Shown in pieces: positions 33,673 to 40,071 of a stretch of DNA of 40,396 nt. The stretch is from an uncultured Alistipes sp. (lineage in GTDB: Bacteria > Bacteroidota > Bacteroidia > Bacteroidales > Rikenellaceae). The notes under the pieces were generated by a model. That model searched no databases, was not told where the DNA came from, and was given only the letters and a program-made list of their open reading frames with translations. Both the position numbers and the translations under genes were made by a program. Positions within the stretch are counted from its first letter, which is position 1. Each line of letters opens with the position of its first letter. The stretch covers positions 1 to 40,396 of the forward strand of contig CANASP010000018.1 in NCBI GenBank assembly GCA_947364365.1. Reading direction: 5' to 3'.

Positions 33673-33745
33673 GCGGAAATAGCTCAGTTGGTAGAGCACA
33701 ACCTTGCCAAGGTTGGGGTCGCGAGTTCGAGTCTCGTTTTCCGCT
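33673..33745 (+). tRNA. tRNA-Gly (anticodon GCC)
   Basis: The 73-base cloverleaf has acceptor GCGGAAA/TTTCCGC, D-arm GCTC...GAGC, anticodon stem CAACC/GGTTG with loop TTGCCAA (anticodon GCC), and T-arm GCGAG-TTCGAGT-CTCGT. CCA is not encoded. It marks the boundary between GC-rich core genome and the AT-richer region to its right. Confidence 0.97.
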
Positions 33746-33754
33746 CTGAAACAG

Positions 33755-34023: not shown

Positions 34024-34536
34024 TTATCTGATTCTGTCGGCGCAAAAACTCTTGCGTCGACATTTCGCGCAATGCACGCCGTGCCAAACAGCATCGAACT
34101 GATCAGCGGCGGCATCGACCAGTGTAGGTTCGTCGGTAAGAATGCCCGCTTCGAAATTACGAGTCGTGGTACCTTTCATGCCGAGTCCTGCACCGGTCAG
34201 ATTGGCAGAACCGATGTAGGCCATTTCACAATCGAAAATCAATATTTTGAAATGTACGCGCGGACATAACCGTCGCTCCAGCCGGCTCCATAATAACGGG
34301 TATTTGTCAAAATCGTTGGCGAAGTTCTGGCCGGGCTCCTTGGCGTGGATCAACCGCACCTCGACACCTCGTCGAATCAAACCCTCCAGTACCCGAAGCA
34401 ATGGCACAGCGTCTAAACCATCTTTGACATAGAGGTCTTTGATGTCGGCCGTTCCGATCCATAGGTAATGTCGCACCTGACGGATGCGTTTAATCACCTC
34501 GTTATAGTGGGCTTCGTTTTGGATGTAGCGGATCAT
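34024..34536 (-). CDS. Phospholipase D-like protein with one HKD motif
   Basis: The 170-residue protein carries a single HxKx4D catalytic motif (His95, Lys97, Asp102) followed by YIGSANLTGAGLG, as in small PLD-superfamily nucleases that act as dimers (Nuc, BfiI-like) rather than two-motif lipases. The N-terminal half has a strand-helix pattern with YLWIGTADIKDLYV. The C-terminus ends with His155, Cys156, Cys159 and Cys165, which could bind a metal. It has no signal peptide. It overlaps the end of the ADP-ribosylglycohydrolase gene by 4 bases (ATGA), so the two are translationally coupled. A nuclease role is inferred from fold and context. Confidence 0.82.
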   Translation of the reverse strand: MIRYIQNEAHYNEVIKRIRQVRHYLWIGTADIKDLYVKDGLDAVPLLRVLEGLIRRGVEVRLIHAKEPGQNFANDFDKYPLLWSRLERRLCPRVHFKILIFDCEMAYIGSANLTGAGLGMKGTTTRNFEAGILTDEPTLVDAAADQFDAVWHGVHCAKCRRKSFCADRIR

Positions 34537-35474
34537 CGCATTACAATAATTTCCACCAACCGACGGGCTTTTTCGGTGAGTTCACCGCATTGCAACAAGC
34601 CTTGCACCCAATCTTCGGGTAGTGCCGCATATCCCATGCGGGCACCGAGCAATGCTCCGGCCACCGCGCAATTCGTGTCCGTATCGCCGCCGGCAGCGAT
34701 AAGCGTTCGTATTGCCGACCGGAAATCCGTTCCGAAGTTGTAAGCCCATAAGCCGGCCGATAGTGTGCGTAGTGTGTAACCTCGTGTATCGGGGTTGTCT
34801 AAACATAGTTTTGCAATATCCGGTTGAAATCCCAATTGCACGAACTCCTCGATTTCAGGCGCATACTTTGCGCCGAGAGCAAGCAAGTCCGATTCGGATA
34901 CCGGCACTCCGTTCAATTCACACCGAATGATATGGGCGACGATAACGCACGAGCCGACACAACGCGGATCGAAATGGGTCAGACGGCAAATCCGTTCCGT
35001 ATTCGCATATACAGCCGCCTCGTTCGGATAATCCCAGATGCCCGTAATACAGGTCCGCATCAAGGCCCCGTTGGCAGCACTTCGGCATCGGCTGAATTTC
35101 CAAAAGAACTCCGAAATTTCATACGGCTGTTGCGCATATTGCGGCATACGCAGAATGTCGTAGGTGTGCCGCCCGATGCCCCGACCGTCGCGGCGGAACC
35201 ATTGCACGAAACGCTCCGCAATATCGTTTGGAACGACCTGCCTGTTTTCAAGCAGGCTGTCGAGAATGCAAAGCATCTGGCTGGTGTCGTCCGTCCATTC
35301 TCCTTGCCGCCAACGACGCCGGAAATCGTCCTGAACGATATCCGAATAGCCGTTCACGCCATTCGGATAGGTGGCGGCAACCTGCTCACGGGACATCCCC
35401 TCGGCGGCCAACCCCAGCGCGTCGCCGATGGCCTGCCCGAAGAGAATGCCGAAGATTTTGTCATTCAGTTGCAT
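34533..35474 (-). CDS. ADP-ribosylglycohydrolase family protein
   Basis: The 313-residue protein has the ARH/DraG metal-binding motifs in order: GDALG at 17-21, TDDT at 61-64 and GGDTDTNCAVAGALLGARMG near residue 270. Such enzymes remove ADP-ribose from proteins, DNA or nucleotides with two Mg2+ ions. The start at 35474 is chosen because the family begins just before the IGDALG helix; the longer frame upstream is antisense-like sequence overlapping the ATPase gene. It begins 17 bases after the ATPase stop and overlaps the PLD gene, so it is the middle of a three-gene unit. Confidence 0.93.
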   Translation of the reverse strand: MQLNDKIFGILFGQAIGDALGLAAEGMSREQVAATYPNGVNGYSDIVQDDFRRRWRQGEWTDDTSQMLCILDSLLENRQVVPNDIAERFVQWFRRDGRGIGRHTYDILRMPQYAQQPYEISEFFWKFSRCRSAANGALMRTCITGIWDYPNEAAVYANTERICRLTHFDPRCVGSCVIVAHIIRCELNGVPVSESDLLALGAKYAPEIEEFVQLGFQPDIAKLCLDNPDTRGYTLRTLSAGLWAYNFGTDFRSAIRTLIAAGGDTDTNCAVAGALLGARMGYAALPEDWVQGLLQCGELTEKARRLVEIIVMR

Positions 35475-35490
35475 AACAGGCTCCCTTTTG

Positions 35491-36447
35491 TTATCTGGAA
35501 GTAGACTCAAACAAATCCTTTCTCTCTTTGAAGAAGTGATAATAGAGTTTGCTCGATTGCAGTTCTTCGAACTTATGAATACACGCAGGATCTCCGTCGA
35601 GATCATAGATTCTTGCAGAAGGAATCGACAAGAGTAGCGGAGAGTGCGTTGCCATGATGATTTGACATTGGTTGAATCTGGCCATGAAAAGTAATAGTTC
35701 GGCCAATTTAAGTTGCATTTGCGGCGACAAACTATTCTCAGGTTCGTCAAAAAAATACAGACCCGACTCTTGCATCATATTCGATATATAGACAAAACTA
35801 TTCTCCCCGTTAGACATCCCGGTCTCCTCACGTCCCAACTTGTCTCTCAAAAATTGGGGTACGGTGTTTCTACGAATACGGCAACCCTCACTCAGGCGTT
35901 CTGCCTCTCCGTCATCTTCCTCAAAATTCAAATGTTTGTCCCATATGGCCGCTCCATGTTTTATTCCTATGTCTTTTTTTATAAGCATTTTGCTCTTAAT
36001 TAGGAACTGTTTCCGTTTCATGTGCTCCTGCTGTAGGTCTCTAAAAATATCATCGCTCGTAATTACGTGCGTAATTTGCGATATGTCGAACATATTGGAA
36101 TGGGACAGGGTAACATCGTACTCCTCTCCGCACCATCTGAGGTCGGTTTCAAAAGAGCATTTTTCCACATAAGCCTCCATGTGTGTGGTGGAGTTGTAGA
36201 GACTTCTGCGATTTGCTCTCAACTTCTTTGCAATCACGTTTATGGCGGTGGATTTACCGCTTCCGTTTTCGCCATAAAGAATCGTGATAGGCTCGAACTC
36301 CAATTTACTCAACCCGATATTCCGCATGATCTTAAACGGGTAAGGGTTTTGATAATATCGACGGATCGAAGGAGGAACATAAAATTTATGAAGATAATCC
36401 TCCTCTGCCCATTGCGAAGGGAAGTAAAATTTCTTCAAGTAGACCAT
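35491..36447 (-). CDS. SMC/ABC-like AAA family ATPase
   Basis: The 318-residue protein has Walker A GENGSGKST (residues 59-67), a signature-like SNGEN before Walker B LYFFDEPENSLSP, and an H-loop IIMATHSPLLL. This is the single-polypeptide ABC ATPase type found in OLD, RloC, Gabija- and retron-like systems, here without a visible TOPRIM or HNH domain. The insertion between Walker A and signature is short and Lys-rich, not a long coiled coil. It lies 24 bases after the WG-repeat gene and 17 before the ADP-ribosylglycohydrolase gene. It would supply ATP-driven sensing or switching; the function is unknown. Confidence 0.9.
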   Translation of the reverse strand: MVYLKKFYFPSQWAEEDYLHKFYVPPSIRRYYQNPYPFKIMRNIGLSKLEFEPITILYGENGSGKSTAINVIAKKLRANRRSLYNSTTHMEAYVEKCSFETDLRWCGEEYDVTLSHSNMFDISQITHVITSDDIFRDLQQEHMKRKQFLIKSKMLIKKDIGIKHGAAIWDKHLNFEEDDGEAERLSEGCRIRRNTVPQFLRDKLGREETGMSNGENSFVYISNMMQESGLYFFDEPENSLSPQMQLKLAELLLFMARFNQCQIIMATHSPLLLSIPSARIYDLDGDPACIHKFEELQSSKLYYHFFKERKDLFESTSR

Positions 36448-36470
36448 ATACCACGTTTCATTAGAATGAT

Positions 36471-38234
36471 CTAAAATGTGGAAGGCACTACAATTCCTTC
36501 GTACTCCAAAGGATAGGCAATGCTGCCGTCGAGGTGCAATTCACCCCACCTGTCCTCCCTGCAGACTGTAATGGTGGTGGCGTGGGGCGGCATCTGTTCG
36601 ATTCGGTCATACTCGAAAGGTATGACGGTCTCACCCGAAAGATCGAGAACTCCGCTCGAGCCGTGCAATGTGGCGACGATCAGTTCGCCACGTCCCGGCC
36701 GTAACGGGTAGAGCGTATCGTAAATGCAGGGAATGACCGATGTACCGTCACGACGGATAATTCCTTTGCGAGCAAGGCGGTATGCGGGAAGATAGTTCTG
36801 TTCGAACTCTTTGCCCCAATCCATCAGGTTTTCATCGTTCCATATCGACTCGTCGAGGTTGTCAATGACGAAAGGCAATCGGGTACCGAGTCGATCGACC
36901 GTGTAACGCTCTTCGCCGACCGTTACCAAGAAAAAGCCCTCGCCCAAACATTGGCCGGTGTCGTAGCATGGCGGCGTAATCCTTTTACCCTCCGTACCGA
37001 CTATTTGCCATTTCCCGTCGATGAGCCCTGCGGCAACACCTTCTCCGTTCATAACCAACCTTTCGTAGACAGGAGGTAAGGTAATTTTTCCCTGCAAATC
37101 CGCAAAACCTAATTTCTCGTTCTGTTCGATTCGGATATGCTCCGAATCGCCGGACATGATGCAACCATACACAGTCGCAAGAACCTCTTTGCCCGCATCG
37201 TCGATAAGCCCCCATTTGTCATCGCGTGTCACGCGAAATACCATACCCGGTTTCTCGTCAGGGATAATATCGTATTCAAATATATTATCGTATTCGAGTT
37301 TCGTGATTTGCCGTCCGGAATGGGCCACAAGGCCATATTTGCCGTCCCTGCCGACGATGATGCAAGGAATATTGCACTTAAATAAATCTTCCTCCGATCG
37401 ACGGAAATCCGGATTCCAATATTGTGCCTCCTCGTATGTTGCAGAGGCCGTCTCGGTATCCATGTCAAGAACTCGTTCCTGCCTGTTTATGAATATGGGT
37501 TTATCGTTCTTTTTTACAAACGTTTTGAACGTCCCGTCGAACATCGGATGCGGCATAGTCCCGTAAATCGGTCGGGTAATCATGTTCCCCAATGGGTCGA
37601 TTACCCCGCGTCCGTCGCCCTGTTCCTTTGCAAAGTAACTGAAATAACCCGTTTCAGGACAGATTGCCACATCGTCGTATTCTCGGTCGTCTATCCGTTC
37701 TCCGGTGAGTGCATAGATAAAATGCCACTTGCCGTGCTGTTTGACAGCACCGATGTTCCAGCAACTCAAATCGGTGGCCTTGTCATATTGAGCCGGGATT
37801 ACCATTTTACCGAACCTGTCGGCATATCCCCATGATTCGGATAAGCATTCCGTTCGTTCGAGATTCCATGTTTGGACACAAACGGCCGTGAAGCAGGGAT
37901 TCTCTAAAAGGTCGTTACGACCTGACCAACGCGGGTTTTCGTGAAAATCGTAGATTTTGACGCTCTGTTCCGAATATTCCAAGATGCGGTAGTCACTTAT
38001 GGCATACGTTACACCTGGACTAAATCGATAATGTCGTTCATTACGTATTTCGCATTCTCCGAAACGATACTGCTGGGGAATCGTGAATTTTTCATCATCC
38101 TTTACAACAAGGCCATAGCGCCACCGAGTTGCATACAACAGTCCTTTCGTAATGAAATTTATACCATAGGTTACATCGTTTGAGAATTGTTCGCAATTTT
38201 CCGGTTCGGGTGTTAAATTTTCCATATCGTTCAT
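36471..38234 (-). CDS. WG-repeat protein
   Basis: The 587-residue protein is made of imperfect repeats of the WG (KWG) type: GYADRFGKMVIPAQYD, KYGLVAHSGRQITKLEYD, KWGLIDDAGKEVLATVYG, KLGFADLQGKITLPPVYE, GVLDLSGETVIPFEYDRIE and RWGELHLDGSIAYPLEYE. These form beta-rich scaffolds of unknown ligand. No signal peptide or membrane segment is seen, so it is cytoplasmic. Codons are AT-richer than those of the core genes to the left. It sits between a WYL regulator and an ATPase in one direction. Confidence 0.9.
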   Translation of the reverse strand: MNDMENLTPEPENCEQFSNDVTYGINFITKGLLYATRWRYGLVVKDDEKFTIPQQYRFGECEIRNERHYRFSPGVTYAISDYRILEYSEQSVKIYDFHENPRWSGRNDLLENPCFTAVCVQTWNLERTECLSESWGYADRFGKMVIPAQYDKATDLSCWNIGAVKQHGKWHFIYALTGERIDDREYDDVAICPETGYFSYFAKEQGDGRGVIDPLGNMITRPIYGTMPHPMFDGTFKTFVKKNDKPIFINRQERVLDMDTETASATYEEAQYWNPDFRRSEEDLFKCNIPCIIVGRDGKYGLVAHSGRQITKLEYDNIFEYDIIPDEKPGMVFRVTRDDKWGLIDDAGKEVLATVYGCIMSGDSEHIRIEQNEKLGFADLQGKITLPPVYERLVMNGEGVAAGLIDGKWQIVGTEGKRITPPCYDTGQCLGEGFFLVTVGEERYTVDRLGTRLPFVIDNLDESIWNDENLMDWGKEFEQNYLPAYRLARKGIIRRDGTSVIPCIYDTLYPLRPGRGELIVATLHGSSGVLDLSGETVIPFEYDRIEQMPPHATTITVCREDRWGELHLDGSIAYPLEYEGIVVPSTF

Positions 38235-38251
38235 AACTTTGCTTTTTTCTG

Positions 38252-38259
38252 CAAAGTAA
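38252..38259 (-). promoter_or_regulatory. Possible internal -7 box before the WG-repeat gene
   Basis: The minus strand reads TTACTTTG, one change from TAnnTTTG, 17 bases before the ATG at 38234. It would allow the last four genes to be transcribed apart from the regulator. The -33 side is unclear. Confidence 0.35.
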
Positions 38260-38297
38260 GGGATATGGTATGTAACACTATTTCATATTATAAAAAA

Positions 38298-39218
38298 TCA
38301 CTTGTTGTCAGTAATATATTGACTATTCATGGCACGAATTATTCCTGCAATGCGATTTCTCAACTCGCAGGGTGCAAGCACCTCGATTTGGTCGCCGTGC
38401 AGGAGCAGTTCCTGTACGAAGTCGAATGTCGGTGACAGATAATATTCGAAGATCGAATAGTCCTGTGTGCGTTCCGTTTCCCGTTGCGACGCGTGAAGGG
38501 GCAATGACCGCAGGTAGTGCGGCAGTTCCGCATAGGCTTTCAGTCGAATGGTCGTGGGCGGCGAATAGCCGTCGGTAGCGATGCCGTAGTAACATGCAAA
38601 ATAGTCGGCCGGATGAAATTCTGCGGGATAAACGAAGGTCTCGTCGGTGCAATCCAATTGCAAGATACGATCCAGTGCGTAAATACGCATATCGTTCGAC
38701 CCGTTCTTGCGAGCGAGCAGATACCAGCGTCGCTTGAACATTTTGACGCCCAGCGGTTCGATTACGAATTTGGCGGGAGTTGTACTTCGATAGCTGCAAT
38801 ACGATAATTGCAACCGTCTGTTTTCACGCAATCCCGTTAATATAGGTTGTAAAAACTCCGTGCCGCCGGGAATATCTTCGAGCTGGATTTTATCGGTCAG
38901 ATCGCGGTATTCGGCAAGCGTATTACCCGTTGCGAACGAATTCAACATCCATTGGTTCACCGTGTCGTTTTCGATGGCATCCCGATTGGCAATGTAATAC
39001 GTGTTCCGGCCCCGGCCACGATGGCAGGCAATCTCTACGCCGAAATGTTTCTCAATGGCATTGCGATGATTGTGGAATGTCCGTAACGACAACGGGGAAC
39101 GATCATCGTTCAACGACGACCGTTCCCATTGAATAGCGATGTTTTCGTATGAAATCTCTCGGGCTCGGCGGATCGTATCGATCAGCCACAGATAGCGCCG
39201 CAAAAGCAAATCGACCAT
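38298..39218 (-). CDS. WYL-domain transcriptional regulator
   Basis: The 306-residue protein begins with a winged helix-turn-helix (YLWLIDTIRRAREISYENIA, then SLRTFHNHRNAIEKHFGV). A WYL domain follows from about residue 130, with FVIEPLGVKMFKRRWYLLAR giving the W-Y-L run, and a C-terminal WCX-like part ends with LLLHGDQIEVLAPCELRNRI. WYL regulators of this form (BrxR, CapW and relatives) often control phage-defence operons through a nucleic-acid or nucleotide ligand. The start at 39218 is set by a 1-base TGATG overlap with the stop of the upstream gene. The longer frame upstream overlaps that gene and is rejected. Confidence 0.9.
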   Translation of the reverse strand: MVDLLLRRYLWLIDTIRRAREISYENIAIQWERSSLNDDRSPLSLRTFHNHRNAIEKHFGVEIACHRGRGRNTYYIANRDAIENDTVNQWMLNSFATGNTLAEYRDLTDKIQLEDIPGGTEFLQPILTGLRENRRLQLSYCSYRSTTPAKFVIEPLGVKMFKRRWYLLARKNGSNDMRIYALDRILQLDCTDETFVYPAEFHPADYFACYYGIATDGYSPPTTIRLKAYAELPHYLRSLPLHASQRETERTQDYSIFEYYLSPTFDFVQELLLHGDQIEVLAPCELRNRIAGIIRAMNSQYITDNK

Positions 39219-40039
39219 CAGAACGAAGCAGGATTCAAATCGCAACCGTAATTGCGCACCAATTCGGCGATCTTTCGGAAATATCCATCGGAAAGTGCGG
39301 CCGAGAACTGACATGTATGCAGCAAAAGTCGGGGCTCTCCGTCTTTACGCGATTCGTTCACATTGATCCATGCCCCGGAATCCGTGATGCTTTTCTCCGG
39401 TACCCATTCAACACCGAATGTTTCTCCGAAATAGTCATCGCTTGCATATTTTTTCGGATAATGCCCGACTGCCGCGATGATAATCGGAAAACGATTAAAA
39501 AAGTCTTTAGTGAAAAATTGTTTTCTTTCCACAATGGATTGGCGAGTCGCTTCCGGATTCGTGCGATTGCTGTTCAATGCAGCTGCGGCACTCATATCGG
39601 TCGAAAAACAATATTGATGAAAATCCAGAAAATCATTGCTGCCGGATTTTTTGCCAAAAATCATATCGATCAGCTTTTGGTATTGATACCACGTGCGGGC
39701 AGTTCCTTCTTTCCCTTCGGGATATTTTCCATTTTTCGTCAGATTGGTAATTTGATATTTCTGCCAACAATGCGGACAAAGCGGATTACCATATATCCTT
39801 GATTTGCGAAATTCGGCAATTACTTCATTGAAACCTGTTTGTTGAGCAATATTTTTGCTCCAATCCTCCCAATTACGTTTTACCTCTATTTCGTATTGGT
39901 TTCTTCCCGTTTCTTTCTTTAAATCAATCGCCGGCTCCTTACTGAGCAGCAGGATTTTCGCATTCGGATTTCCCCAGCCGATAAAATCGGGAGTATCTAC
40001 ACGATCAATCAGTTGTTCAAATTCTTTCGGATAAATCAT
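39218..40039 (-). CDS. Hypothetical protein, possibly uracil-DNA glycosylase superfamily
   Basis: The 273-residue protein opens with FIGWGNPNAKILLLSKEPA. This weakly recalls the first motif of UDG-superfamily proteins (a G-x-P-x-A-x-I-L strand followed by the catalytic loop), but the canonical GEAPG is replaced by SKEPA. A CPHC pair (NPLCPHCWQKYQ) may bind zinc. A middle FSTDMSAAAALN, the strand FPIIIAAVGHYPKKY and the late LLLHTCQFS follow, roughly where UDGs carry their second histidine loop. The assignment is therefore tentative. It starts the minus-strand cluster, behind a TATATTTG box, and its stop overlaps the regulator start. Confidence 0.5.
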   Translation of the reverse strand: MIYPKEFEQLIDRVDTPDFIGWGNPNAKILLLSKEPAIDLKKETGRNQYEIEVKRNWEDWSKNIAQQTGFNEVIAEFRKSRIYGNPLCPHCWQKYQITNLTKNGKYPEGKEGTARTWYQYQKLIDMIFGKKSGSNDFLDFHQYCFSTDMSAAAALNSNRTNPEATRQSIVERKQFFTKDFFNRFPIIIAAVGHYPKKYASDDYFGETFGVEWVPEKSITDSGAWINVNESRKDGEPRLLLHTCQFSAALSDGYFRKIAELVRNYGCDLNPASF

Positions 40040-40063
40040 CGTTTATTTAGTTTAGTATAGATG

Positions 40064-40071
40064 CAAATATA
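40064..40071 (-). promoter_or_regulatory. Promoter -7 box for the accessory gene cluster
   Basis: The minus strand reads TATATTTG 24 bases upstream of the ATG at 40039, in a strongly AT-rich stretch. It would drive the putative six-gene cluster reading leftwards. Confidence 0.6.

Follow-up and report, generated by a model that had tools for sequence, protein, structure and literature searches.

Six co-oriented genes beside a tRNA-Gly gene in an uncultured Alistipes sp. contain the two recurring parts of a modular cassette: a WYL-type transcription regulator and a single-HKD phospholipase D-like nuclease (PLD) with four conserved cysteines (HKD-Cys4) are found together in related genomes, and the genes surrounding them are swapped. 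The six genes lie in a stretch of 40,396 bases (GenBank assembly GCA_947364365.1, contig CANASP010000018.1; hereafter, the window), which is a whole contig (C18) of a genome of 2.15 Mb and 87% completeness. From first to last, they encode a protein resembling uracil-DNA glycosylases (UDG-like), the WYL regulator, a WG-repeat protein, an ABC-type ATPase, an ADP-ribosylglycohydrolase (ARH), and the PLD (Table 1). The genes swapped in relatives include those for GmrSD, McrBC, Mrr, a PD-(D/E)XK nuclease, a DEDDh exonuclease, and UDG-looking proteins. We put the chances at about even that these genes form one version of a horizontally transferred anti-phage cassette under WYL control, and such a cassette is probably aimed at modified phage DNA. 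A first-pass annotation of this DNA had proposed a defence-type locus, and this is supported: the WYL, PLD, ATPase, and UDG-like families recur together or with GmrSD, McrBC, Mrr, PD-(D/E)XK, and retron-type genes. Its further idea of a single fixed six-gene system is not: among the loci compared by means of the window proteins, none other had all six genes.

Recurrence of the WYL regulator with the PLD nuclease

Within the Rikenellaceae, 9 of 16 PLD places, counting that of the window, have a member of the window's WYL subfamily no more than 6 kb away, where 0.12 would be expected (the count used 20 WYL rows from PLD-holding genomes). WYL relatives at E ≤1e-25 are present in 72 of the 268 genomes of the family; the PLD family is present in 15 of 268 family genomes and in 29 of 295 genomes of the order, with the source genome counted in both. 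The conserved synteny that the first-pass annotation looked to is upheld in part: the order WYL–WG–ATPase–PLD stands once more as in the window, with a relaxase gene close by, in Alistipes sp. An66 (G054, L029); WYL is near PLD in eight further places in the family; the UDG-like gene adjoins WYL in two other genomes; and an ARH is near a PLD in a few loci. WYL, WG, and PLD also stand together at one other locus (L076).

A scan of named genome contigs returned at least 558 PLD relatives, the best 80 of which, and hence the closest ones, supplied the loci for neighbourhood counts (their rows include two from Treponema and three from Fibrobacter). WYL genes lie within 9 kb in 26 of the 80, in 20 of these upstream on the same strand (controls, 0 of 28); a DEDDh exonuclease is found in 26 (controls, 0 of 28); and GmrSD, McrBC, Mrr, or PD-(D/E)XK genes are found in 31 (controls, 1 of 28). 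A common order is WYL, exonuclease, variable genes, and PLD, with Pfam names checked on representatives, and the WYL subfamily itself co-localises with defence genes (GmrSD, McrBC, Mrr, and exonuclease). Because the family models were built from genes frequent around those same 80 loci, their counts are partly self-confirming, and 29 PLD loci sampled across the order provide the better check: here, WYL is found at 5, the exonuclease at 4, and restriction genes at 5, versus 0, 0, and 1 of 28 controls. Two of the 29 are also among the 80, both lacking WYL, exonuclease, and restriction genes. The controls are 28 stretches, out of 30 sought, from the genomes of the order sample rather than from those of the 80 loci, a few of them very short (one of 56 bases), and amount to 447,082 bases versus 506,742 in the test set. 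Since many loci end at contig ends, all of these co-occurrence counts are lower bounds. The weaker linkage across the order indicates that the cassette belongs to PLDs nearer to that of the window, distant PLDs often standing without it. By Pfam, the DEDDh exonuclease is missing from the six-gene run of the window; it is a common, not a constant, member of the cassette.

Parts of the frame are also found on plasmids and on contigs classed as viral. Plasmid pE2-28 of Prevotella sp. E2-28 carries, by independent annotation, a WYL gene, a 3′-5′ exonuclease, and two DUF262 (GmrSD) genes without a PLD, and on a Segatella hominis plasmid, PLD is separated by 5 kb from a WYL gene on the other strand, in the vicinity of PD-(D/E)XK and HAD genes. 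For the PLD family, one plasmid record and two viral contigs were found, and no phage record matched.

An IMG/VR contig classed as viral (L348:5977-12284) holds WYL, exonuclease, McrB, and McrC genes.

The PLD itself carries the HKD motif H95/K97/D102 together with cysteines C91 and C156-X2-C159-X5-C165. The HKD residues, C91, C156, and C165 are present in 100% of 107 aligned rows, and C159 is present in 99%; the four cysteines could form a metal or Fe-S site. Among the matches listed in named records, the nearest PLD is that of Alistipes sp. An66, and the PLD tree pairs the window's protein with the one on An66 contig C44 (84% identity); a second close relative, in G028, is 86% identical over residues 31-170 and lies in two frames. 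Both of these closest PLDs are preceded by a retron-type reverse transcriptase (family checked for the An66 gene), without this WYL: they are similar nucleases with different companions.

One such reverse transcriptase (L067:7921-9516) resembles retron type XI (PADLOC RT-Protease_XI, 1.4e-94), and another (L056:9595-11185) clusters with it; each immediately precedes a PLD sharing 84-86% identity with that of the window. This arrangement is possibly a retron with a PLD effector.

The UDG-like gene and other UDG-looking families

Gene identities proposed in the first-pass annotation were clear by Pfam for five of the six genes (WYL, WG, ATPase, ARH, and PLD); for the UDG-like gene, searches of Pfam, NCBIfam, PADLOC, PHROGs, and the PDB sequences brought up no UDG at the thresholds applied. 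An alignment of 16 members of its family brings out the motifs GxGNPxxxxL, F-x-T-E/D, and Q-x-S near the end, in an order that we take to be that of UDG motifs. G21-x-G23-N24-P25, F145-x-T147, and Q244-x-S246 are invariant, and residue 148 is E in at least 90% of the 16 rows and D in the window. In hhalign, the family gave a weak, ordered match to a mixed UDG-like set (a score of 25.1 at 4.7% probability, where 28 shuffles reached 14.5 at most), the composition of which favours family B, as it includes family-B-like rows; the same profile had no match to the PLD alignment, the WYL alignment, or that of one UDG-looking family.

Members of the UDG-like family are present in 14 of the 295 order genomes and in 3 of 200 family genomes, the source genome included, with no match in plasmids or phages. 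In one genome (G345), the UDG-like gene ends 3 bases before WYL, which is the window order, and in another (G451), two UDG-like genes follow WYL, the gap being 42 bases. Two relatives (L263 and L269) lie near adenine methyltransferase genes, one of them also near a type III restriction-type helicase.

Other UDG-looking families have genes in 7 of 20 further Rikenellaceae WYL loci and in none of 48 other regions (the 28 controls plus 20 tRNA-site regions), a count that is partly self-confirming, as most of the models derive from the WYL loci counted. Eight such families were scanned: four match Pfam UDG below the cut-off (1e-4 to 0.07), two were recognised by profile comparison only, one by a weak BLAST match, and one by eye. 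On a viral contig, a UDG-looking gene with no Pfam match lies eight bases before a PLD.

Two side observations concern the same kind of gene. In G218, one WYL gene (L229:6220-10170) is flanked by three distinct genes of UDG-looking families D, E, and B, and on an IMG/VR contig (L345:1415-2742), a UDG-looking gene and a PLD stand near a gene that, by eye, resembles a terminase.

The ATPase and ARH companions

The ATPase has its motifs in place (Walker A at residue 59, SNGE at 212 as signature-like motif, DEPE at 234 as Walker B, and THSP at 267 as H-loop), and its best-scoring models are PtuA and AriA, with matches also to AriA chains. When a small number of candidates per genome was scored, its close family was found in 5 genomes (the source genome among them) out of 393 of the order, and a scan of named genome contigs gave no match. 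Members of this close family lie within 6 kb of WYL in four of nine loci (G000, G054, G104, and G471), adjoining it in G471, and ATPase and PLD are adjacent in G054 (L029) and G104 (L028).

The ARH motifs are intact (GDALG at 17, DDT at 62, and GGDTD at 262), and its PDB matches are 2cwc (4.4e-28) and 6dre (1.4e-25), the latter of which we take to be Tri1. An ARH 67% identical to that of the window lies 7.6 kb from the PLD in G028.

Apart from these, in Parabacteroides faecis, Parabacteroides goldsteinii, and Parabacteroides gordonii (L078, L079, and L081), a same-strand ARH starts 0.55 to 1.1 kb past the PLD start; these proteins are 22 to 23% identical to the window's ARH (Pfam checked for L078 and L081).

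Layout of the locus and its integration site

The six minus-strand genes occupy positions 34024-40039, all open and without internal stops, and are spaced along the run by a 1-base overlap, gaps of 63, 23, and 16 bases, and a 4-base overlap, exactly as the first-pass annotation had described. It had also noted a single box ahead of the run: this box, TATATTTG, begins at 40071, about 25 bases before the first ATG, and fits what we take to be the Bacteroidota −7 pattern, TAnnTTTG, a pattern match that is by itself no evidence of function. Gene calls are frames chosen by length and conservation, with no gene finder. The WYL start was placed at the ATG at 39218, which overlaps the UDG-like stop by 1 base; an alternative frame of 338 amino acids (aa) starts at 39314. 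No Pfam helix-turn-helix was matched in WYL residues 1-120. As the window is the whole contig, the sequence 5′ of the UDG-like gene is lost 357 bases further on.

Table 1. Coordinates of the gene run, its promoter-like box, and the bordering tRNA gene in the window
Feature	Position	Strand	Description
Promoter-like box TATATTTG for the six-gene run	40064-40071	minus	About 25 bases 5′ of first ATG
UDG-like, candidate DNA glycosylase-fold protein, first gene	39218-40039	minus	273 aa; motif family of 16, weak profile match
WYL-WCX transcription regulator	38298-39218	minus	306 aa; Pfam WYL 5.2e-16, WCX 8.4e-10
WG-repeat protein	36471-38234	minus	587 aa; Pfam WG_beta_rep 1e-31, 5 stretches
ABC-type ATPase	35491-36447	minus	318 aa; Pfam AAA_21 9.8e-17
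ARH	34533-35474	minus	313 aa; Pfam ADP_ribosyl_GH 3.6e-68
PLD, single-HKD phospholipase D-like nuclease, last gene	34024-34536	minus	170 aa; Pfam PLDc_2 1.5e-12
tRNA-Gly(gcc), left border of cassette	33673-33746	plus	ARAGORN; Rfam RF00005

The earlier remark that an AT-richer stretch starts right after a tRNA is likewise correct, the GC content being 0.647 before tRNA-Gly and 0.469 after it. This tRNA-Gly is an integration site. Among 61 genomes of the genus, 56 others have the same upstream gene; in the 20 of these taken for comparison, tRNA-Gly is kept behind that gene in 6, and in 4 of the 6 the first frame of at least 100 aa behind it is a tyrosine integrase (one truncated). Three of the four integrases are Pfam-confirmed, and the remaining one (L321) nearly duplicates the L304 integrase; in another of the six (L307), the end of the tRNA gene recurs as a near-copy 164 bases further along. 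Relatives at this tRNA hold differing genes. In the window, neither open reading frames nor Pfam revealed an integrase between tRNA-Gly and the contig end, and no direct or inverted repeat of at least 12 tRNA bases that could mark a right border occurs anywhere.

Comparison with known systems

The nearest precedents for the anti-phage reading are Brig1 and Brig3, UDG-superfamily defence enzymes encoded beside a predicted ADP-ribosyl glycohydrolase; the Brig3 partner BapA removes glucose, after which Brig3 can act (PMC11078745, PMC13160076). The acidic residues in their pockets, E147 in Brig1 (a position commonly occupied by Asn in UDGs) and D127 in Brig3 (PMC11078745, PMC13160076), resemble E/D148 of the window's UDG-like family, an equivalence suggested by motif order only. 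Unlike the Brig loci, the window locus adds WYL, PLD, ATPase, and WG genes.

A WYL-WCX regulator is shared with operons of the BrxR/CapW type, in which it accompanies genes for type IV restriction and further defence functions. Around BrxR relatives, the best-represented systems are BREX and type IV restriction, and WYL proteins are already known to control islands that include type IV restriction (PMC9122601). In contrast, BREX and CBASS genes are absent from the window's six, and the frequent companions of its WYL subfamily are the DEDDh exonuclease and the HKD-Cys4 PLD; the main text of PMC9122601 does not contain the terms "Bacteroid," "phospholipase," or "glycosylase." A literature search, mostly without subscription papers, found no published description of the WYL/exonuclease/PLD frame of Bacteroidales.

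Relatives of the cassette hold type IV restriction genes (GmrSD/BrxU, McrBC, and Mrr), often between WYL and PLD, whereas the window copy has no GmrSD, McrBC, or Mrr; there, the UDG-like protein would be the enzyme that acts on modified bases. Septu and PARIS share an AAA_21 ABC-type ATPase with the window; in contrast to theirs, the window ATPase is short and has no PtuB HNH or AriB Toprim partner. In line with the first-pass annotation, which knew of no named system with this set, PADLOC matched no complete system protein by protein.

Individual candidates were rejected as follows: Septu and PARIS, with no partner gene among the six and the PtuA equivalog at 31.2 bits versus a cut-off of 500; DISARM, with the DrmC model at 42.9 bits versus a cut-off of 133 and no other DISARM gene among the six; and a retron, with no reverse transcriptase among the six, though the two closest PLDs sit behind one.

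Proposed function and alternatives

If the run is a WYL-controlled anti-phage cassette, WYL would keep the operon repressed until it bound a signal of infection, either nucleotide-like or arising from DNA damage. The UDG-like protein would then excise modified phage bases, leaving abasic sites, and the PLD would cut the abasic phage DNA, perhaps gated by the ABC-type ATPase. ARH might strip the ADP-ribose marks of phage ADP-ribosyltransferases or might, like BapA with Brig3, unmask a base so that the glycosylase could act, and the WG protein could be an interaction scaffold. A bolder and rather improbable version generalises this scheme: WYL and the HKD-Cys4 PLD would be the frame of a plug-in immune cassette, with a slot for an enzyme against modified or foreign DNA (UDG-like, GmrSD, McrBC, Mrr, or the retron-type reverse transcriptase beside the closest PLDs), the PLD being a shared finishing nuclease, for example at the abasic sites of a glycosylase, and the window's ARH unmasking or cleaning the substrate. 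If true, it would amount to restriction by base excision through a shared effector.

Several results weigh against a cassette of this kind. No convincing operator or inverted repeat is shared upstream of the WYL genes; at 7 of the 16 Rikenellaceae PLD places, WYL is missing from the 6 kb on either side (two of the seven are on contigs shorter than 6 kb); and the An66 copy in G054 appears partly decayed, with a 141-aa ATPase remnant and a PLD lacking its first residues. Across the order, WYL is absent at 24 of 29 PLDs and the exonuclease at 25 of 29, such that the PLD may have a general role. The ATPase and ARH each accompany the PLD in only 4 of 80 loci, which marks ARH as cargo rather than core, and WG is a common Bacteroidota protein. 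Pfam UDG matched none of the 16 members of the UDG-like family, the sequence of the window gene only weakly suggests a UDG, and WYL was not matched in 11 of 13 UDG-like regions of the order sample or in 2 family regions. Finally, the ADP-ribosyl glycohydrolase next to brig3 was dismissed as unnecessary (PMC13160076), which argues against a necessary role for ARH.

That the full set was not met again, that ARH and WG vary, and that relatives at the same tRNA hold differing genes would also fit a loose heap at a tRNA hot spot, made up of accessory genes unrelated to one another, in which only pairs (UDG-like/WYL and WYL/PLD) cooperate. We consider such a heap possible, at a low probability: it is countered by the shared orientation of the six genes, their two overlaps, and their single box, by the retention of four of the six in order in G054, and by a WYL/PLD linkage far over chance.

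Somewhat doubtful is a Bacteroidota form of the ARG-centred systems, where ARH would reverse phage ADP-ribosylation of host molecules, WYL would sense ADP-ribose products, and the PLD would be a back-up effector. Systems with ARG and WYL, variable nucleases, and no ADP-ribosyltransferase have been predicted to act in conflicts (PMC9503650, section 3.8), and the window resembles them in having ARH (with intact metal motifs) and WYL in one run, variable nuclease effectors, and, by Pfam, no recognised ADP-ribosyltransferase among the six. Those systems have a coupled phosphatase in little over 55% of cases and often a peptide-binding chaperone (PMC9503650), whereas Pfam finds no phosphatase or chaperone of the listed kinds among the window's six; the example lineages in section 3.8 omit Bacteroidota, and the rarity of ARH beside the PLD counts against it as well.

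A two-part abortive system of the Septu or PARIS kind, with the ATPase holding the PLD until triggered, is unlikely. The top scores of the ATPase with PtuA and AriA models and AriA chains and its adjacency to PLD in G054 and G104 argue for it; such an ATPase is found in just the few PLD loci given above, and ATPase loci without a PLD exist. UDG-like and HKD enzymes occur in DNA repair, and many PLDs of the order sample stand without cassette genes. A host DNA-repair or stress operon, to which the genotoxic-stress response of some WYL regulators (PMC10693628) would also be suited, is equally improbable given the patchy presence of the PLD (29 of 295 order genomes), the tRNA site, the partners drawn from restriction and retron genes, and the genome's own UDG, above the Pfam cut-off, on contig C19.

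Defence in gut Bacteroidales is less mapped than that in enterobacteria. If the anti-phage cassette is real, its recurring frame (WYL, exonuclease, and HKD-Cys4 PLD) with a variable middle would index new defences against modified DNA; the several UDG-looking families around WYL are direct candidates for further Brig-type glycosylases. Should the products of a glycosylase be substrates of the PLD, a single operon would unite base excision with restriction.

Other genes around the WYL regulators

In three genomes (L231, L232, and L234, in G198, G154, and G157, respectively), WYL lies, by eye, at one chromosomal site after a secG-like gene. It stands alone in two of them, and in the third, it is followed by two GmrSD genes and an exonuclease, as if cargo had been inserted behind a resident regulator. 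A small duplicated protein resembling a zinc ribbon (FYCEYCG repeats) recurs near WYL (L153:9346-9597, L076, L224, and L228); for the L153 copy, Pfam zinc-finger matches are below the cut-off. Also recurrent in Alistipes cassettes is a gene of about 360 aa with pieces of DNA polymerase III alpha (NTPase and finger; Pfam on L108), seen in L028, L061, L108, L221, L222, L225, L229, and others, which raises the question of whether it is a DnaE decoy or a relic.

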